Shown: positions 52,632 to 60,073 of the stretch, piece after piece
Layout of the letters: each line of letters starts with the position of its first letter
Position numbering within the stretch: the first letter of the stretch is position 1
Source: Bacteroidota bacterium
Lineage (GTDB): Bacteria; Bacteroidota; Bacteroidia; Chitinophagales; Chitinophagaceae
NCBI GenBank assembly: GCA_020161535.1
Contig: JAIUNW010000001.1
Coordinates: 248,001 to 312,000, forward strand
Reading direction: 5' to 3'
Length of the DNA: 64,000 nt
Made by a program: the position numbers and the translations under genes
Notes under the pieces: model-generated
What the model was told of the DNA's origin: nothing
The model's database searches: none
What the model saw: the letters and a program-made list of their open reading frames with translations, nothing else

Positions 52632-55600
52632 TTATTTAACACTCACGAGTACATTGATTTTGCCAATACCTGCGCCGTTGAAGTCGGCCAAGGCCTTGCC
52701 AATCACCTGACCCACTTTTACCTTGTCAGGGTCGGCCTTCATAGCAGCACCCGGAGTAGATGAACTAACCAGTAAATCACCTCGTTTAATGGCACCACCT
52801 TCCATGGTAACTTTGGTGGGGATAACACCAATTACACCCATCGGCACGCCAGCGTCGCCGAGTTTTTCATTGATGTTTTTCTCCGTCAGCAATACACCCG
52901 GTTTGGTGGCATATACGCCCGCAACGAGGGTAGAATAAGGCTTGGATGATTTAACCACTGTACGGTCGTTGCTGGCAGAGATTTCCAGCACATCGCCGGG
53001 CTCGTAAGTTGTCAGGCTACCTTCCACCGAAAAATGCTCAGCCACATCAGCACCTGAGTACTGGGCGCCGCCATTAAAATAACCGCGTCCGTTTGCATCG
53101 ATTCTTGCCACATTGGTGCCGCCAACCTGGAATTCAGCGAGGTTACCAGTACCAGCCACGCCCAATGCTGCTAAAAGTGCTGTTCCATTACCTGAACCGG
53201 TAACTTCATTGGCATAGGCCATCACACCAATACCGTCGCTGCTCGTTCCCATTACGCCTATTGCGTTTGTACGACCGGCTGGACTACCTGTTGCAGCATT
53301 GTATCCGTAGATTGCCGGACTTCCATCGCCGGCTGTTTCACCAACGATGGCTGTTCCCAAACCGGAATTGTTGGCATACAAACCGGCACCATATGGAACT
53401 GTGGAGGTGGCTTCAATACCGTTGATGGCACCGATGGCAATAATAGCCGTGGTTTGGTCGGCTTCGGCTTGAATAGCAGGTAAAGCTGATCCACCATCCG
53501 CATGTGTTACAACATGTAAACCCGTGCCAGCATCAGAAGTCGCTTCAATGGCCACCTGGTTTTGCGAATACGCAGACAGACCAATATTATTGATGGACGA
53601 AGCTTTCACCCCGATACCATTGTTGGTGAAACCCGCCACCGCTGTTCCCATGCCAGAGTGTGTGCCAATAACACCAAAAGCATTGGTAGAAGAAGTTCCT
53701 GTAACGGCACCCCATACGCCAGAAGAATTGGCATTGGGCGATGCGTGTTCAATATTACCATTAACACCCGATACCAAGGCAGCGTTTGCATTGGATCCTA
53801 CAATTGGAATGCCGGGACCGTAGTTATAGAGGGAAAACAGGTTGCTGTTATCGGTGTATTTAGTAGACGCCGGAGTCGGAAAGGGAATCGAAAAAGAAGT
53901 TCCTGATCCCGTTGCATCTGCCTGCGGTGCCCACTGGGTACCATTGAATTTCAATACCTGACCAGTGGTGGGTGCTACCGATGAAATCGGTGTACCGGCA
54001 ATCTTGCCCAGGGTTGGGTTGGGATAAGTACCGGCGAGATCACCTGAAGCGGCGCCATTGGGCGGCAAGCTGGTTGGAATCACGCCTGTTGCCAGTTTAG
54101 CGCTGGTGATGGTACCATCGGTAATCTTCGCTGCAGTTACGGCACCGTCGGCCAGTTTCGCCGTGCTTACAACAGCATCAGCCATTTTAGCAGCCGTTAT
54201 TGCATTGGCCGCAATGGTCGGATTCGGATAGCTACCTGCCAGGTCGCCACCCGCTGCACCGGTTGGCGCGCCGCTACCACCCGTTGCTTCTGCCGCAGGC
54301 GCCCATTGTGTTCCATTGTATTTCAGAATCTGGCCAGTTGTCGGCAAGGTCGCTGCGACAGCTACGCCATTTATTTTCGCCACGGCGGGTGAAGGATAGC
54401 TACCACTGAGGTCGCCCGAGGCGGTACCATTCGGCGGCAAGCTGGTGGGGATTACACCCGATGCGATTTTCGCACTCGTAACAGCACCATCGGCCAGTTT
54501 TGCTGTGCCAATGGAGGCATCAGCGATTTTGGCACTGGTGATGGCGTTGTTGGCCACCGTTGGGTTGGGGTAAGAGCCAGTCAGGTCGCCACCAGCTGCA
54601 CCCGTTGGTGAGCCACTACCGCCCGAGGCCTCATTCGCCGGCGCCCATTGTGTGCCGTTAAATTTCAGTATTTGTCCGCTGACAGGCGCTGTTGCCGCCA
54701 GGGTATAACCATTCAGTTTACCCACCGTTGGCGCGGGATAGTTGCCACTCAAATCGCCCGAGGCAGCGCCGGAAGGCGGCAGGCTGCTGGGGATCACCCC
54801 ACTGGCCAGTTTGGCTGAGGTGATGGTGCCATCGGGTATTTTTACGGCAGTAACCGACCCATCGGCCAGTTTTGCCGTCGTAACTGCATTTGCTGCTAAA
54901 TCTGCGCTGGCAACGGTACCATCGGCGATTTTGGCCGTGGTTACTGCATTGTCGGCGATTTTAGCAGTGGAAACGGCGTTATCGGCCAGTTTCGGGTTGG
55001 TGATGGCTGCGTCGAGTACCTTGGTCGTGCTGATCGCATTGTCCGCAATTTTGCCATTGGTAACGGCATTATTGGCCACCGTTGGATTGGGATAAGTGCC
55101 TGCAAGATCGCCGCCGGCAGCACCGGTGGGCGAACCGCTACCACCCGAAGGAATTACGCCCGGCGCCAGTTTGGCGGCGGTGATGGTACCATCGGCGATT
55201 TTTGCCGCGGTAACAGCATTATCGGCCAGTTTCGGGTTGGTGATCGATGCGTCTTGTACCTTGGCTGTACTGATCGCGTTATCGGCAATTTTGCCATTGG
55301 TAACGGCTGCATTGGCGATAGACGGGTTGGGATAAGTACCAGTGAGGTCGCCCGCAGCAGCGCCGGTAGGTGGCAGCGAAGTCGGTATAACACCCGAAGC
55401 CAGCTTGGCGGCAGTAACCGAACCATCGGCTATTTTATTAGTGGTAATGGCTGCATTAGCCAGTTTTCCAGATGTTACAGCACCAGCAGCGATGGAGGGT
55501 GCTGGATAGGTTCCTGTCAGGTCGCCACTGGCAGCGCCGCTGGCGCTTGATCCAGAAAGCACGCCCGGCGCCAGTTTGGCGGCGGTGATGGAACCATCGG

Positions 55601-56129
55601 GAATTTTATCGGCCGTCACCGCGCCCGTTCCCAGTTTGGTGCTGGTAACCGCGCCGTCTTTGATGGCCGGGTTGGGGAAGTTTCCGCTCAGGTCGCCGCC
55701 GGCTGCGCCAATGGGATTGGCAGACTCAGCGCGGAAAGCGAAGGGAACACTGGTCAGTGGGCTGGAACCCAGCGACACAAAATTGGTTCCCCCTTTGGGA
55801 TCCATTTCAATTTCAACATATTTCAAGGTGGTGGCCGACCAGTTGACGCCCGACAGGGTACCTGTCAGGTTACTGCCCCCTTCGCTACCGATCGCGGTAG
55901 AAAAGAGACCGAACTGGTTGGTGGTCACCGTTCTTCTTTCTGAATACACAATAATGCCGGTGGGTGATGCTTCGTGAATAGAAACCCGGATGGAAACTGA
56001 TTGGTTGGATAAGGGCGCTCCGTATGCATTTCTGGCGATCCCCTGGTAATTGATCTGTTTTGGCACCTGTGCGTATACAGAGGAACACAAAAACAGTCCT
56101 ACCACAAATGGCATAACTTGTTTTATCAT
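52632..56129 (-). CDS. Very long repetitive secreted fibre-like protein
   Basis: 1165 residues: signal peptide (MIKQVMPFVVGLFLCSSVYAQ); a Bacteroidota N-terminal domain (residues 24-135; QINYQGIARNAYGAPLSNQS, SSPLTSVPFAFRAE); a repeat region (about 140-745) in which GDLxGxYPNPT blocks alternate with rows of ITxAKIADG/VTxAKLADG hexads; a second region of NAxGVxGxSxxGxGVxA units (about 760-985); and a C-terminal domain (about 1000-1165; EPGDVLEISASNDRTVVKSS). The repeats resemble phage tail-fibre or trimeric adhesin stalks with beta-helical structure. It has no T9SS tail itself; the preceding gene does. Confidence 0.82.
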   Translation of the reverse strand: MIKQVMPFVVGLFLCSSVYAQVPKQINYQGIARNAYGAPLSNQSVSIRVSIHEASPTGIIVYSERRTVTTNQFGLFSTAIGSEGGSNLTGTLSGVNWSATTLKYVEIEMDPKGGTNFVSLGSSPLTSVPFAFRAESANPIGAAGGDLSGNFPNPAIKDGAVTSTKLGTGAVTADKIPDGSITAAKLAPGVLSGSSASGAASGDLTGTYPAPSIAAGAVTSGKLANAAITTNKIADGSVTAAKLASGVIPTSLPPTGAAAGDLTGTYPNPSIANAAVTNGKIADNAISTAKVQDASITNPKLADNAVTAAKIADGTITAAKLAPGVIPSGGSGSPTGAAGGDLAGTYPNPTVANNAVTNGKIADNAISTTKVLDAAITNPKLADNAVSTAKIADNAVTTAKIADGTVASADLAANAVTTAKLADGSVTAVKIPDGTITSAKLASGVIPSSLPPSGAASGDLSGNYPAPTVGKLNGYTLAATAPVSGQILKFNGTQWAPANEASGGSGSPTGAAGGDLTGSYPNPTVANNAITSAKIADASIGTAKLADGAVTSAKIASGVIPTSLPPNGTASGDLSGSYPSPAVAKINGVAVAATLPTTGQILKYNGTQWAPAAEATGGSGAPTGAAGGDLAGSYPNPTIAANAITAAKMADAVVSTAKLADGAVTAAKITDGTITSAKLATGVIPTSLPPNGAASGDLAGTYPNPTLGKIAGTPISSVAPTTGQVLKFNGTQWAPQADATGSGTSFSIPFPTPASTKYTDNSNLFSLYNYGPGIPIVGSNANAALVSGVNGNIEHASPNANSSGVWGAVTGTSSTNAFGVIGTHSGMGTAVAGFTNNGIGVKASSINNIGLSAYSQNQVAIEATSDAGTGLHVVTHADGGSALPAIQAEADQTTAIIAIGAINGIEATSTVPYGAGLYANNSGLGTAIVGETAGDGSPAIYGYNAATGSPAGRTNAIGVMGTSSDGIGVMAYANEVTGSGNGTALLAALGVAGTGNLAEFQVGGTNVARIDANGRGYFNGGAQYSGADVAEHFSVEGSLTTYEPGDVLEISASNDRTVVKSSKPYSTLVAGVYATKPGVLLTEKNINEKLGDAGVPMGVIGVIPTKVTMEGGAIKRGDLLVSSSTPGAAMKADPDKVKVGQVIGKALADFNGAGIGKINVLVSVK

Positions 56130-56152: not shown

Positions 56153-56698
56153 TTAGTTAATCTTGATTATTTTGTAAGCGCCTTTTCTGACAATGCCACC
56201 CTGAAGCGGTTCCAGTTCAACATATAAGAAATAGTATCCGGCGGCCAGCTTCGTCATGTTAAATGTCTCGGTGGTACCGTACCCATAATAGGCATATGAT
56301 TTCTGGGTGAGTCGCTCGCCCTTGGCAGTAAACAACATACAATGCAGGTTACCCGGCTGGTTTACCGACACCTGCACCTGTAAAATGGAGCGAACTGGGT
56401 TGGGTAAGATTTTCACTTCGCCCGGCGCAAAACTGGGCTCGTCTGAAATGGTCATCAACCCATTGTTATCGGGTTGAAGCAAGCCCTGGGTCAGCAAGAA
56501 TGACTTATTATCGGCGATACGCGTGTCGATTCGCACCAGTTCACCGATGCTCCAGTCAGTCATCAATTGGTCGTTCTTAAAACTACCGCCGGCGCTGTTG
56601 TTGGTCACCGTAGTACCTTCCTGCGCCAGGCTACTGGCCGCCAAAAAGAGCGAAAAAACGCCGGTTAGTAATAGTTGTTTTGGACGGTTTAAGTTCAT
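56153..56698 (-). CDS. T9SS C-terminal sorting-domain protein
   Basis: 181 residues: signal peptide (MNLNRPKQLLLTGVFSLFLAASSLAQ), a small N-terminal beta part (DWSIGELVRIDTRI, FLLTQGLLQPD) and a C-terminal type A sorting domain (VKILPNPVRSILQVQV, YFLYVELEPL, KGAYKIIKIN) recognised by the type IX secretion system and usually removed during surface attachment. Most of the protein is the sorting domain. It could be a carrier or surface anchor for the fibre protein 24 bases downstream in the same unit. Confidence 0.8.
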   Translation of the reverse strand: MNLNRPKQLLLTGVFSLFLAASSLAQEGTTVTNNSAGGSFKNDQLMTDWSIGELVRIDTRIADNKSFLLTQGLLQPDNNGLMTISDEPSFAPGEVKILPNPVRSILQVQVSVNQPGNLHCMLFTAKGERLTQKSYAYYGYGTTETFNMTKLAAGYYFLYVELEPLQGGIVRKGAYKIIKIN

Positions 56699-57198: not shown

Positions 57199-57408
57199 TT
57201 ACTTTTTCAGGGAGTCAACCTTTGCTTTCAGGCTATCAACAGCTGCAGAAGCAGTAGAATCGATAGTAGCTTTAGCGCTATCAACAGTTGCGGTAACAGC
57301 AGAGTCTACTTTAGAAGCAGCAGCTTCAGTAGCTTCAGTTGCAGTGTCAGCAGCATTGTTACAAGCAGCGAAGGCGCCGATAGCCATAACGAAAAGGAGC
57401 TTTTTCAT
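57199..57408 (-). CDS. Small Ala-rich helical lipoprotein
   Basis: 69 residues: lipoprotein signal MKKLLFVMAIGAFAACNN (lipobox FAAC), then about 50 residues of Ala/Ser/Thr/Asp/Lys with recurring VDS or IDS every 7-8 residues (KVDSAVTATVDSAKATIDS, then AAVDSLKAKVDSLKK), predicting a single long amphipathic helix that could form a coiled coil. It ends in two lysines. The design recalls Braun's lipoprotein (Lpp), but no homology is claimed. Short ORF, strong signal and its own terminator support it as a real gene. It is divergent from the ECF sigma gene. Confidence 0.75.
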   Translation of the reverse strand: MKKLLFVMAIGAFAACNNAADTATEATEAAASKVDSAVTATVDSAKATIDSTASAAVDSLKAKVDSLKK

Positions 57409-57548
57409 GAGAGTTCTTTTAGTATTAGTTTGAATAATGATTTCTTATTAATACGGAGATCGGAAAAAGGTAACCCGGCGCAGAAAAAAAAATTTTCGCC
57501 CATCTTTGCGGGTTACTATTTGTTATTTTATGTATTAAATAATACAGC

Positions 57549-58112
57549 GTGAGTGTAGATCCGGCAGAACGGGATTTATTGACAGGATTGGGAAAAAAAG
57601 ACACAACGGCCACCGAAACCATCTACCGCCGGCACTATTCCATGGTGCAGTCGATGGTATTGGCAGGCAATGGGAGTATTGACGATGCCCGTGATGTTTT
57701 CCAGGAAACAATGCTGGTATTGTACGACAAAGTTCGAAATCCGGGGTTTGAGCTCACCTGTCTGTTGAAGACATATATCTATTCGGTGGCCCGAAGGCTT
57801 TGGTTGAAGCGGCGACAACTTTCACAAAAAACCGTTCCGGCGCTGGAGGACATCGAAGAAACAGTTTCTGTAGAAGAAGATGTAGATGCAACGGAAAATG
57901 CAGAGTCGGCGTTTTTAATCATGGACAAAGCGATGGCCGGTCTCGGTGAACCTTGCCGAAGTTTGTTGACGGCCTTCTACCTTGAGAAACGCAGTATGTC
58001 GGAGATAGCGGGCAATTTTGGTTACACCAACGCAGAAAACGCCAAGAACCAGAAGTACAAATGCCTGACCAGATTGAAAAAATTATTTTTTGCCCGGTAT
58101 AAAAGCCAGTAA
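57549..58112 (+). CDS. ECF-type RNA polymerase sigma factor (module 3)
   Basis: 187 residues, start GTG at 57549. Region 2: IDDARDVFQETMLVLYDKV, LLKTYIYSVARRLWLKRRQL. Then an acidic linker (ALEDIEETVSVEEDVDATEN) and region 4 with CRSLLTAFYLEKRSMSEIAG and FGYTNAENAKNQKYKCLTRLK. It is followed after two bases by the anti-sigma/protease gene, with which it must form a regulatory pair. An upstream CATCTTTG at 57510-57517 is a near match to the -7 box. Confidence 0.88.
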   Translation: MSVDPAERDLLTGLGKKDTTATETIYRRHYSMVQSMVLAGNGSIDDARDVFQETMLVLYDKVRNPGFELTCLLKTYIYSVARRLWLKRRQLSQKTVPALEDIEETVSVEEDVDATENAESAFLIMDKAMAGLGEPCRSLLTAFYLEKRSMSEIAGNFGYTNAENAKNQKYKCLTRLKKLFFARYKSQ

Positions 58113-58114
58113 AG

Positions 58115-59227
58115 ATGAACGAGGACGTACAAATATTGGAAATGGTGGAGCGGTACTTGTTGGGTGAGATGTCGCCCGAAGAGCGTGCCCAGTTTGAGGC
58201 TATCCGTGCTCTTCGCCCGGAAGTGGACCAACTGGTGGTGGAACATGGTCTTTTTCTACGCCAGGTAGATGAATATGGCGATCGCAAATCAATCAAATCA
58301 TTTCTGCACGATACCCAGCATAACCTGGAGCTTTCCGGCGACATCAGTACCGAACAGCCCAAGGTGCGCTTTATGACCGATCGCTACAAGCGGGTTTTCT
58401 TTGTAGCAGCCTCCATCGCTGGCTTAACCGCCCTGGCCATCAGCGGCATCGTCAGCTATTTTACGCCCAAGGGCAGCACTTCTGAAATCGCCCTTTTGAA
58501 GCGGGAATTGAACCTGGTGAAAAAAACCACCCTGCAAACCCAACACCAGGTGAATAACCTGAGTGTGGTGCCTGCGCCCGCAGACAACCGGCCCGTTCGC
58601 CCCTCAGATCCCGGGAAATTTGGCGGCACCGGCTTTTTGATCGACGGTCGTGGTTACCTCGTTACCTCGGCGCATGTGGTTGCCAAGGCCGATTCAGTAT
58701 ATATTAGTAATGCCAAGGGCGAATTCTATAAAACAAAACTGCTGCACCTCAACAACGAAACGGATATTGCCATCCTGAAAATTGTTGACGATCGCTTCAC
58801 CGCGTTGAGCAGCCTGCCGTATAGCCTGCGTACGAAAAAGGCCGAACTCGGCGAACCCATTTTCACCCTGGGTTTCCCCCGTACCGAAATCGTGTACAAC
58901 GAAGGCTACCTGAGTGCGAAAACCGGTTTCAATGGCGATACCACGGCTTACCAGGTGTCGATCGCAGCCAACCCCGGCAACTCCGGCGGCCCCATCTTCA
59001 ACCACAATGGCGAAATCATCGGTGTACTGAGCGGCAAGCAAACCACCGCCGAAGGTGCTGTCTTTACCAGCCTCAGCAAGAACATCTTGCGCGCCATCGA
59101 CTCCCTGAAAACCGACAGCAGCAACCTCAGCATCCACCTCCCGCTGCACAGCAGCCTCCGCGGTGTTGAACGGGTGCAACAAATCAAACAGATTGAAAGC
59201 TGTGTTTTCAATGTAATGTCATTCTAA
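58115..59227 (+). CDS. Membrane-anchored trypsin-like protease with anti-sigma-like cytoplasmic head
   Basis: 370 residues. Residues 1-90: cytoplasmic acidic helical segment (MVERYLLGEMSPEERAQFEA) resembling anti-sigma N-termini in this phylum. Residues 93-115: one membrane helix. Residues 120-160: coiled, Pro-rich linker. Residues 165-340: S1C (DegP/HtrA-like) trypsin fold with intact triad His187 (VTSAHVVA), Asp217 (NNETDIAILK), Ser290 (ANPGNSGGPIF). No PDZ domain. The protease would face the periplasm. Two bases separate it from the sigma gene. Likely job: hold the sigma factor inside and respond to, or make, a cleavage event outside. The 3' end abuts cassette 2. Confidence 0.87.
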   Translation: MNEDVQILEMVERYLLGEMSPEERAQFEAIRALRPEVDQLVVEHGLFLRQVDEYGDRKSIKSFLHDTQHNLELSGDISTEQPKVRFMTDRYKRVFFVAASIAGLTALAISGIVSYFTPKGSTSEIALLKRELNLVKKTTLQTQHQVNNLSVVPAPADNRPVRPSDPGKFGGTGFLIDGRGYLVTSAHVVAKADSVYISNAKGEFYKTKLLHLNNETDIAILKIVDDRFTALSSLPYSLRTKKAELGEPIFTLGFPRTEIVYNEGYLSAKTGFNGDTTAYQVSIAANPGNSGGPIFNHNGEIIGVLSGKQTTAEGAVFTSLSKNILRAIDSLKTDSSNLSIHLPLHSSLRGVERVQQIKQIESCVFNVMSF

Positions 59228-59596: not shown

Positions 59597-60073
59597 ATGA
59601 GCTTCGCTGAATTTTTATCAAAGAATTGGTCCCAAATTACAGTCGTACTGACTGCATTAGGAGCTGTGATAAAGATTATTTTTGATTTCCAAATCCGAAA
59701 AAAGGAAATAAAATTTGAATATTTATTCAAAGAGAAAGCAAGTTCATTTCAAGATTTCATGATTTGTCTTCAAAACTTCAAAACCCAACTTATTAAAGAA
59801 GCATATATACATAAGTATGGTAGTTCTACTTTTTCCGAATTCGAAACGACCATGGACAAATCCAGAAAAGAACTTGAAAGCAAAATAAATTTACTTCTAA
59901 TTTACTGCTCACATAAGGAAAAAGAATCGCTTTACGCAATTCTTAATAGTTGCACATTTGTTCTCCATGCGATTAAAAACGTAAATGTAAATGATGTAGA
60001 AAAAGTTCTGCAAGATAATTGCAAAAAAAATGATGCTATTATTAACAAGTTAATTAAGAACTTCCATCTTTAG
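59597..60073 (+). CDS. Hypothetical membrane protein, AT-rich (probably acquired)
   Basis: 158 residues: a membrane helix near the N-terminus (residues 13-33, ITVVLTALGAVIKIIFDF) and then a fully helical, Lys/Asn-rich cytoplasmic part (KKEIKFEYLFKEKASSFQDF, ESLYAILNSCTFVLHAIKNV). The topology is like small membrane-helical effector or immunity proteins, but no family is recognisable. Codon use (AAA, AAT, ATT, TTA rich) differs sharply from the neighbours. It lies inside the inverted-repeat cassette 59243-60315 and has no operon partner. Confidence 0.7.
   Translation: MSFAEFLSKNWSQITVVLTALGAVIKIIFDFQIRKKEIKFEYLFKEKASSFQDFMICLQNFKTQLIKEAYIHKYGSSTFSEFETTMDKSRKELESKINLLLIYCSHKEKESLYAILNSCTFVLHAIKNVNVNDVEKVLQDNCKKNDAIINKLIKNFHL

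Follow-up and report, generated by a model that had tools for sequence, protein, structure and literature searches.

The regulated proteolysis of anti-sigma factors is normally divided among several proteins. The E. coli RpoE/RseA/DegS/RseP system has an ECF sigma factor, a single-pass anti-sigma-like protein, a DegS-type periplasmic protease and a site-2 protease, and in all of these it is like the locus described here. It differs in that anti-sigma and protease parts are here combined in one polypeptide, that the PDZ domain of DegS is absent and a conserved helix-strand tail is present instead, and that the promoter and regulon are not those of the RpoE system. An earlier note on this DNA held that known systems use separate proteases to cut the anti-sigma factor, which is too broad a statement, as both RsgI-type and FecR-type anti-sigma factors cleave themselves, though not via a serine protease domain. 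RsgI of Clostridium makes the first cut itself, with RseP and ClpXP acting after it (PMC12203970); a first cut of this kind is what we propose for the fusion protein here, although RsgI uses an autocleavage domain rather than a serine protease and differs in sigma type and phylum. In Bacteroides, Dma1, Dma2 and Reo are anti-sigma proteins encoded next to ECF21/EcfO sigma factors; each has its head in the cytoplasm and crosses the membrane by a single helix (PMC13088901, PMC13114119). The likeness of the Dma family and Reo to the present protein is one of layout (Bacteroidota, ECF-adjacent, a head and one membrane helix), whereas the Dma proteins end in an outer-membrane beta-barrel and the fusion ends in a protease. 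To our knowledge, there is no fusion of an anti-sigma head with a serine protease in RpoE-RseA-DegS, RsgI or Dma/Reo. The literature searched contains no description of a protease-fused anti-sigma factor; the main ECF classification (NAR 2021) was outside the scope of that search, and an earlier mention is possible.

Organization of the locus

The window is the whole stretch of DNA analysed, 64,000 nucleotides in length, and the features that concern us within it are as follows.

57199..57408, minus strand: small lipoprotein gene, divergent from the sigma gene; 69 aa, lipobox AFAAC, six D-S/T-(A/L/T) sequons in the tail
57448..57476, minus strand: promoter-like site of the lipoprotein gene, GGGTTAC-N15-GTATTAA, kept in relatives
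57510..57538, plus strand: promoter-like site of the sigma/fusion operon, GGGTTAC-N15-GTATTAA, about 10 nt before the GTG start
57549..58112, plus strand: ECF sigma factor gene; 187 aa, GTG start, Sigma70_r2 and TIGR02937 matches
58115..59227, plus strand: fusion protein gene; 370 aa, with anti-sigma-like head, membrane helix, coiled linker, DegS-like S1C protease, and C-terminal helix and strand
58115..58390, plus strand: helical, non-zinc head, presumed sigma-binding domain; residues 1-92, model helices 2-15, 21-33 and 35-74
58388..58462, plus strand: single membrane helix with conserved A98-A99; residues 92-116, from model and alignment
58565..58615, plus strand: flexible linker, putative cut site; residues about 151-167, low pLDDT and poor conservation
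58616..59116, plus strand: S1C protease domain with His187, Asp217 and Ser290; residues 168-334, from Pfam, alignment and model
59144..59224, plus strand: conserved C-terminal tail RxxQIKxIxxYVFxVKxY; residues 344-370, helix and strand at the position of the DegS PDZ domain

By its sequence matches, the product of 57549-58112 is an ECF sigma factor of the sigma70 family, with hits to Sigma70_r2 (6.8e-6, 26.2 bits against a curated cut-off of 24) and to TIGR02937 sigma70-ECF (1.5e-16, 60.4 bits against a cut-off of 42.9). Its GTG start lies about 10 nt after the -10 element (57510-57560), as it does in relatives, which suggests that the sigma mRNA is leaderless or nearly so. The gap between the sigma stop and the fusion start is 2 nt in the window, and in many relatives the two genes overlap, often by 4 nt; such start-stop overlap is typical of sigma/anti-sigma pairs. 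The earlier note had placed an ECF sigma factor gene and a head/membrane-helix/protease fusion at these same positions, and both open reading frames, the sigma and Trypsin_2 matches and the structural model agree with that placement.

The architecture of the fusion protein is apparent from an AlphaFold2 model with a mean pLDDT of 84, in which the membrane helix (92-116) is followed by a coiled linker helix (122-149), the protease fold spans residues 169-334, and two further elements predicted with confidence, a helix (353-361) and a strand (364-369), come behind it. The conserved helix and strand (residues 353-369) are absent from the earlier reader's description. The Pfam family Trypsin_2 matches residues 171-304 (7e-24), and the full His-Asp-Ser triad described in the earlier note, formed by His187, Asp217 and Ser290, is invariant in all 69 aligned homologues. 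The protease thus has the trypsin-like fold, the triad and the GNSGG-type motif of the S1C class. It shares fold and triad with HtrA, DegP and DegS and differs from them in its N-terminal anti-sigma-like head and in having no PDZ domain; a C-terminal PDZ domain is present in DegS and DegP, whereas in the fusion protein neither Pfam nor the model gives one, as the earlier note had also observed, and only the helix and strand of the tail lie past the protease. Its best fold match among solved structures is DegS with the PDZ domain deleted (delta-PDZ, E 3.8e-14). Judged by sequence and fold, the C-terminal part of the fusion is an S1C (HtrA/DegS) serine protease fold plus a short tail, and proteolytic activity is predicted. 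In front of the protease the model has pLDDT below 50 at residues 151-157, and residues 118-164 have a mean identity of only about 20% among relatives. This stretch, modelled as flexible and little conserved among relatives, would be the most likely place of a first cut.

The same helix-strand tail is found on proteases with other N-terminal domains and no nearby sigma gene (L060:4010-5620, L061:2909-5203 and L062:4492-5277), and on sequence these belong to a wider Bacteroidota protease family. The presence of the tail in secreted relatives that have neither head nor sigma factor indicates that a protease of this kind can have other work.

The pairing of the two genes is strict. Wherever the contig reaches, the sigma gene lies directly upstream of the fusion gene, adjacent and co-directional (69 of 69 loci, leaving aside one whose contig breaks off at the fusion gene), and the gene order whose absence from relatives the earlier note had set as a refutation is therefore kept. 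The fusion is present in 35 of the 36 family members searched besides the source genome, the exception being G010, a 75% complete assembly. A search of 24 genomes from the order's other families did not find it, and what matches there is the protease part alone. In a class-wide sample of 295 Bacteroidia genomes, 43 have it, and these belong to ten families, Chitinophagaceae and Sphingobacteriaceae among them; named relatives that carry it are Flavihumibacter, Chitinophaga, Mucilaginibacter, Pedobacter, Sphingobacterium, Olivibacter and Hymenobacter.

The anti-sigma-like head

Related sigma factors elsewhere in Bacteroidia are mostly followed by membrane proteins that have a similar head and different periplasmic domains. 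A profile comparison of the two sets of heads gave P=7.9e-18, against 0.033 for a reversed control, in line with the earlier note's view of this region as anti-sigma-like. Because it is homologous to the heads of ECF-adjacent proteins with other periplasmic domains, the head is, as far as sequence comparison indicates, a modular anti-sigma-like unit that recurs beside ECF sigma factors. Under the class I anti-sigma (ASDI) definition, a co-directional gene adjoining the ECF sigma gene is present at 69 of 69 loci. In addition, sigma and head distances correlate after the protease domain is accounted for (partial r 0.59, with 0 of 500 permutations as high), a correlation part of which may reflect shared descent. 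A class I anti-sigma partner had been recognised for only about 6% of the ECF sigma factors in Bacteroidota (PMC7406223), a gap for which the modular head, found next to many related sigma factors, could in part account.

No curated anti-sigma family exceeds its cut-off for the head, and a sequence search of the PDB gave no convincing solved relatives; the sole PDB matches, to PPAR near E 0.004, were judged to be due to chance. The zinc-finger anti-sigma family zf-HC2 was likewise set aside, having no match in the source genome and only a sub-threshold match in the fusion protein (E 0.003); such matches, below the cut-off, occur in 2 of 28 members. For co-modelling only, the sigma factor and fusion were joined in a single chain (L050), in which the natural stop between the two genes was read as Gly, and this was aligned with nine similar chains in unpaired rows. 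The individual domains of the joint sigma-head model are confident. Fold searches with the joint sigma-head-protease model returned lists taken up by protease chains and are silent on the sigma-head interface.

A shared promoter motif and sequon-rich lipoproteins

The general form of the promoter motif is GGGTTAC-N15-GTATWAA, and in the whole 4.03-Mb source genome there are just two exact sites, one before the sigma gene and the other, facing away from it, before the lipoprotein gene. Sites with one or two mismatches are no commoner in this genome than those of the backward pattern, and mismatched sites were left out of the analysis. Among 37 genomes (the source genome and relatives) we identified 48 exact sites, against one for the backward pattern, and at about 40 of the 48 what follows is the sigma operon, a lipoprotein gene or a gene whose product has an AMPK1_CBM-type domain (several, for which no locus was fetched, are assigned by identical sequence). 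A second set of 24 genomes, one of which is already included in the 37, contains 57 exact sites and none of the backward pattern, and 14 genomes of the same order without the sigma/fusion pair contain merely three. A strict match precedes the sigma operon at 45 of the 69 loci, and in some families (f62, f83 and f33) the strict promoter or an abundance of sequons is wanting. As the motif and the sigma/fusion pair co-occur, we infer that this sigma factor reads GGGTTAC-N15-GTATWAA; the motif would define a small and directly testable regulon.

The proteins with AMPK1_CBM-type (glycogen-binding) domains that lie behind the same promoter come from several relatives, in L320, L301, L309, L310, L347 and L348, some of them with a helix-hairpin-helix; such a protein was sought in the source genome and not found. 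Larger lipoproteins behind the same motif occur in two Sphingobacteriaceae-type genomes (L339 and L340).

A divergent lipoprotein gene starts within 450 nt of the pair at 59 of 66 loci; for control scans the figure is 3 of 258. Sphingobacteriaceae-type genomes can have several lipoprotein genes in tandem, every one of them preceded by a separate motif (arrays of small, sequon-rich lipoproteins of this kind are in L130, L136, L128, L133, L135 and L137), and elsewhere the lipoprotein gene is far from the sigma/fusion pair and the motif is still kept. The retention of the same promoter motif even at distant genomic sites suggests that the lipoprotein is likely a co-regulated output of the circuit. 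The earlier note had proposed it as a target or signal; its involvement is borne out by the linkage, but it is better seen as an output, and may be a target or signal as well.

These lipoproteins are short and have low-complexity tails, which vary by lineage and mostly share a D-S/T-small/hydrophobic motif. The O-glycosylation motif of exported Bacteroidota proteins is D-S/T-(A/L/V/I/M/T), and the function of the general O-glycosylation system is still unclear (PMC12871550). A total of 461 such sequons are present in 106 promoter-linked lipoproteins, compared with 80 expected when each tail is shuffled (sd 8, highest 106) and 51 of the backward motif. These counts are not independent, given the relatedness of the sequences and the repetitive nature of some; the set includes at least one spurious ORF, and in some lineages sequons are few or absent. 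Sequon density in the lipoproteins is 8.9 per 100 aa; larger exported proteins have 0.58-0.75 per 100 residues, and the remaining ORFs of the loci 0.33. In sequence they have the characteristics of Bacteroidota general O-glycoproteins and are candidates for glycosylation, and such sequon-dense small lipoproteins may link envelope signalling to general O-glycosylation.

Proposed circuit, alternatives and neighbouring genes

We propose, with moderate confidence, that the locus encodes a compact, one-polypeptide envelope sensor of the DegS/RseA type, which would drive its own operon together with the sequon-rich lipoproteins. The head of the fusion would hold the ECF sigma factor at the inner membrane, and the DegS-like protease domain of the same chain would sit in the periplasm. 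An envelope signal would activate the fused protease. Its most likely substrate would be the chain that carries it, cut in cis or by a neighbouring subunit at the flexible residues ahead of the protease fold. What is left of the fusion would then be finished by the genome's single RseP-like site-2 protease and by cytoplasmic proteases, and with the anti-sigma part removed the sigma factor would be released, to recognise GGGTTAC-N15-GTATWAA, raise its own operon and turn on the small sequon-array lipoproteins. There is one clear M50 site-2 protease in the source genome, which makes a cascade of the DegS-RseP type possible. DegS-like and RseA-like parts are thus placed on one chain, conserved over ten Bacteroidota families, and the circuit, if it operates in this way, would be an unusually compact form of envelope sensing.

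Signalling could, however, occur with no cut in the anti-sigma part. The protease may bind or digest misfolded or unmodified envelope proteins, and its occupancy may alter the head by way of the connecting membrane helix and coil, in the manner of a receptor. We consider this rather unlikely: the same domains and linkage fit it, a conformational signal could travel along the coiled linker and the membrane helix, and secreted, headless relatives of the protease exist, but the invariant triad suits cutting at least as well as sensing, and a flexible, cuttable linker is present in the model. It seems improbable that the protease is instead a co-regulated quality-control enzyme that is simply anchored via the anti-sigma head, the signal entering in some other way (at the head, for example, or through a separate site-1 protease). 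The unrelated periplasmic domains on the same head in other family members would be consistent with such an effector role, yet the protease is kept with an intact triad in 69 of 69 genomes, and always in this operon. Of self-cleavage, signalling by shape and an effector role, between which sequence does not discriminate, we favour the first, since the triad is the same in every homologue and the chain offers a flexible linker.

A further alternative is that the head is not an anti-sigma domain and that the operon consists of a sigma factor and a membrane protease, nothing more. The lack of a curated anti-sigma family over cut-off and of a solved homologue by sequence would agree with this, but heads homologous to this one are found next to related ECF sigma factors that have other partner proteins, the start-stop overlap is that of sigma/anti-sigma pairs, and the promoter motif appears autoregulatory, all of which leave this the explanation to which we give very little credence.

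The circuit might also monitor envelope O-glycosylation or lipoprotein maturation, with glycosylated lipoproteins protected and unglycosylated ones acting as substrate or ligand of the fused protease, so that one polypeptide would report the state of a regulon product to the sigma factor; this reading is quite doubtful.

Several other genes in this part of the window deserve mention. To the left, a 1165-aa protein with GxAxGDLxGxYPxPxI-type repeats (DUF5907) is encoded at 52632-56129 on the minus strand, and the product of the adjoining gene, at 56153-56698 on the same strand, ends in a weak type IX secretion sorting domain. To the right, a 158-aa ORF at 59597-60073 (plus strand), for which Pfam gives no match, occupies an AT-rich stretch between the fusion and nucleotidyltransferase genes, and is possibly a lineage-specific insertion.
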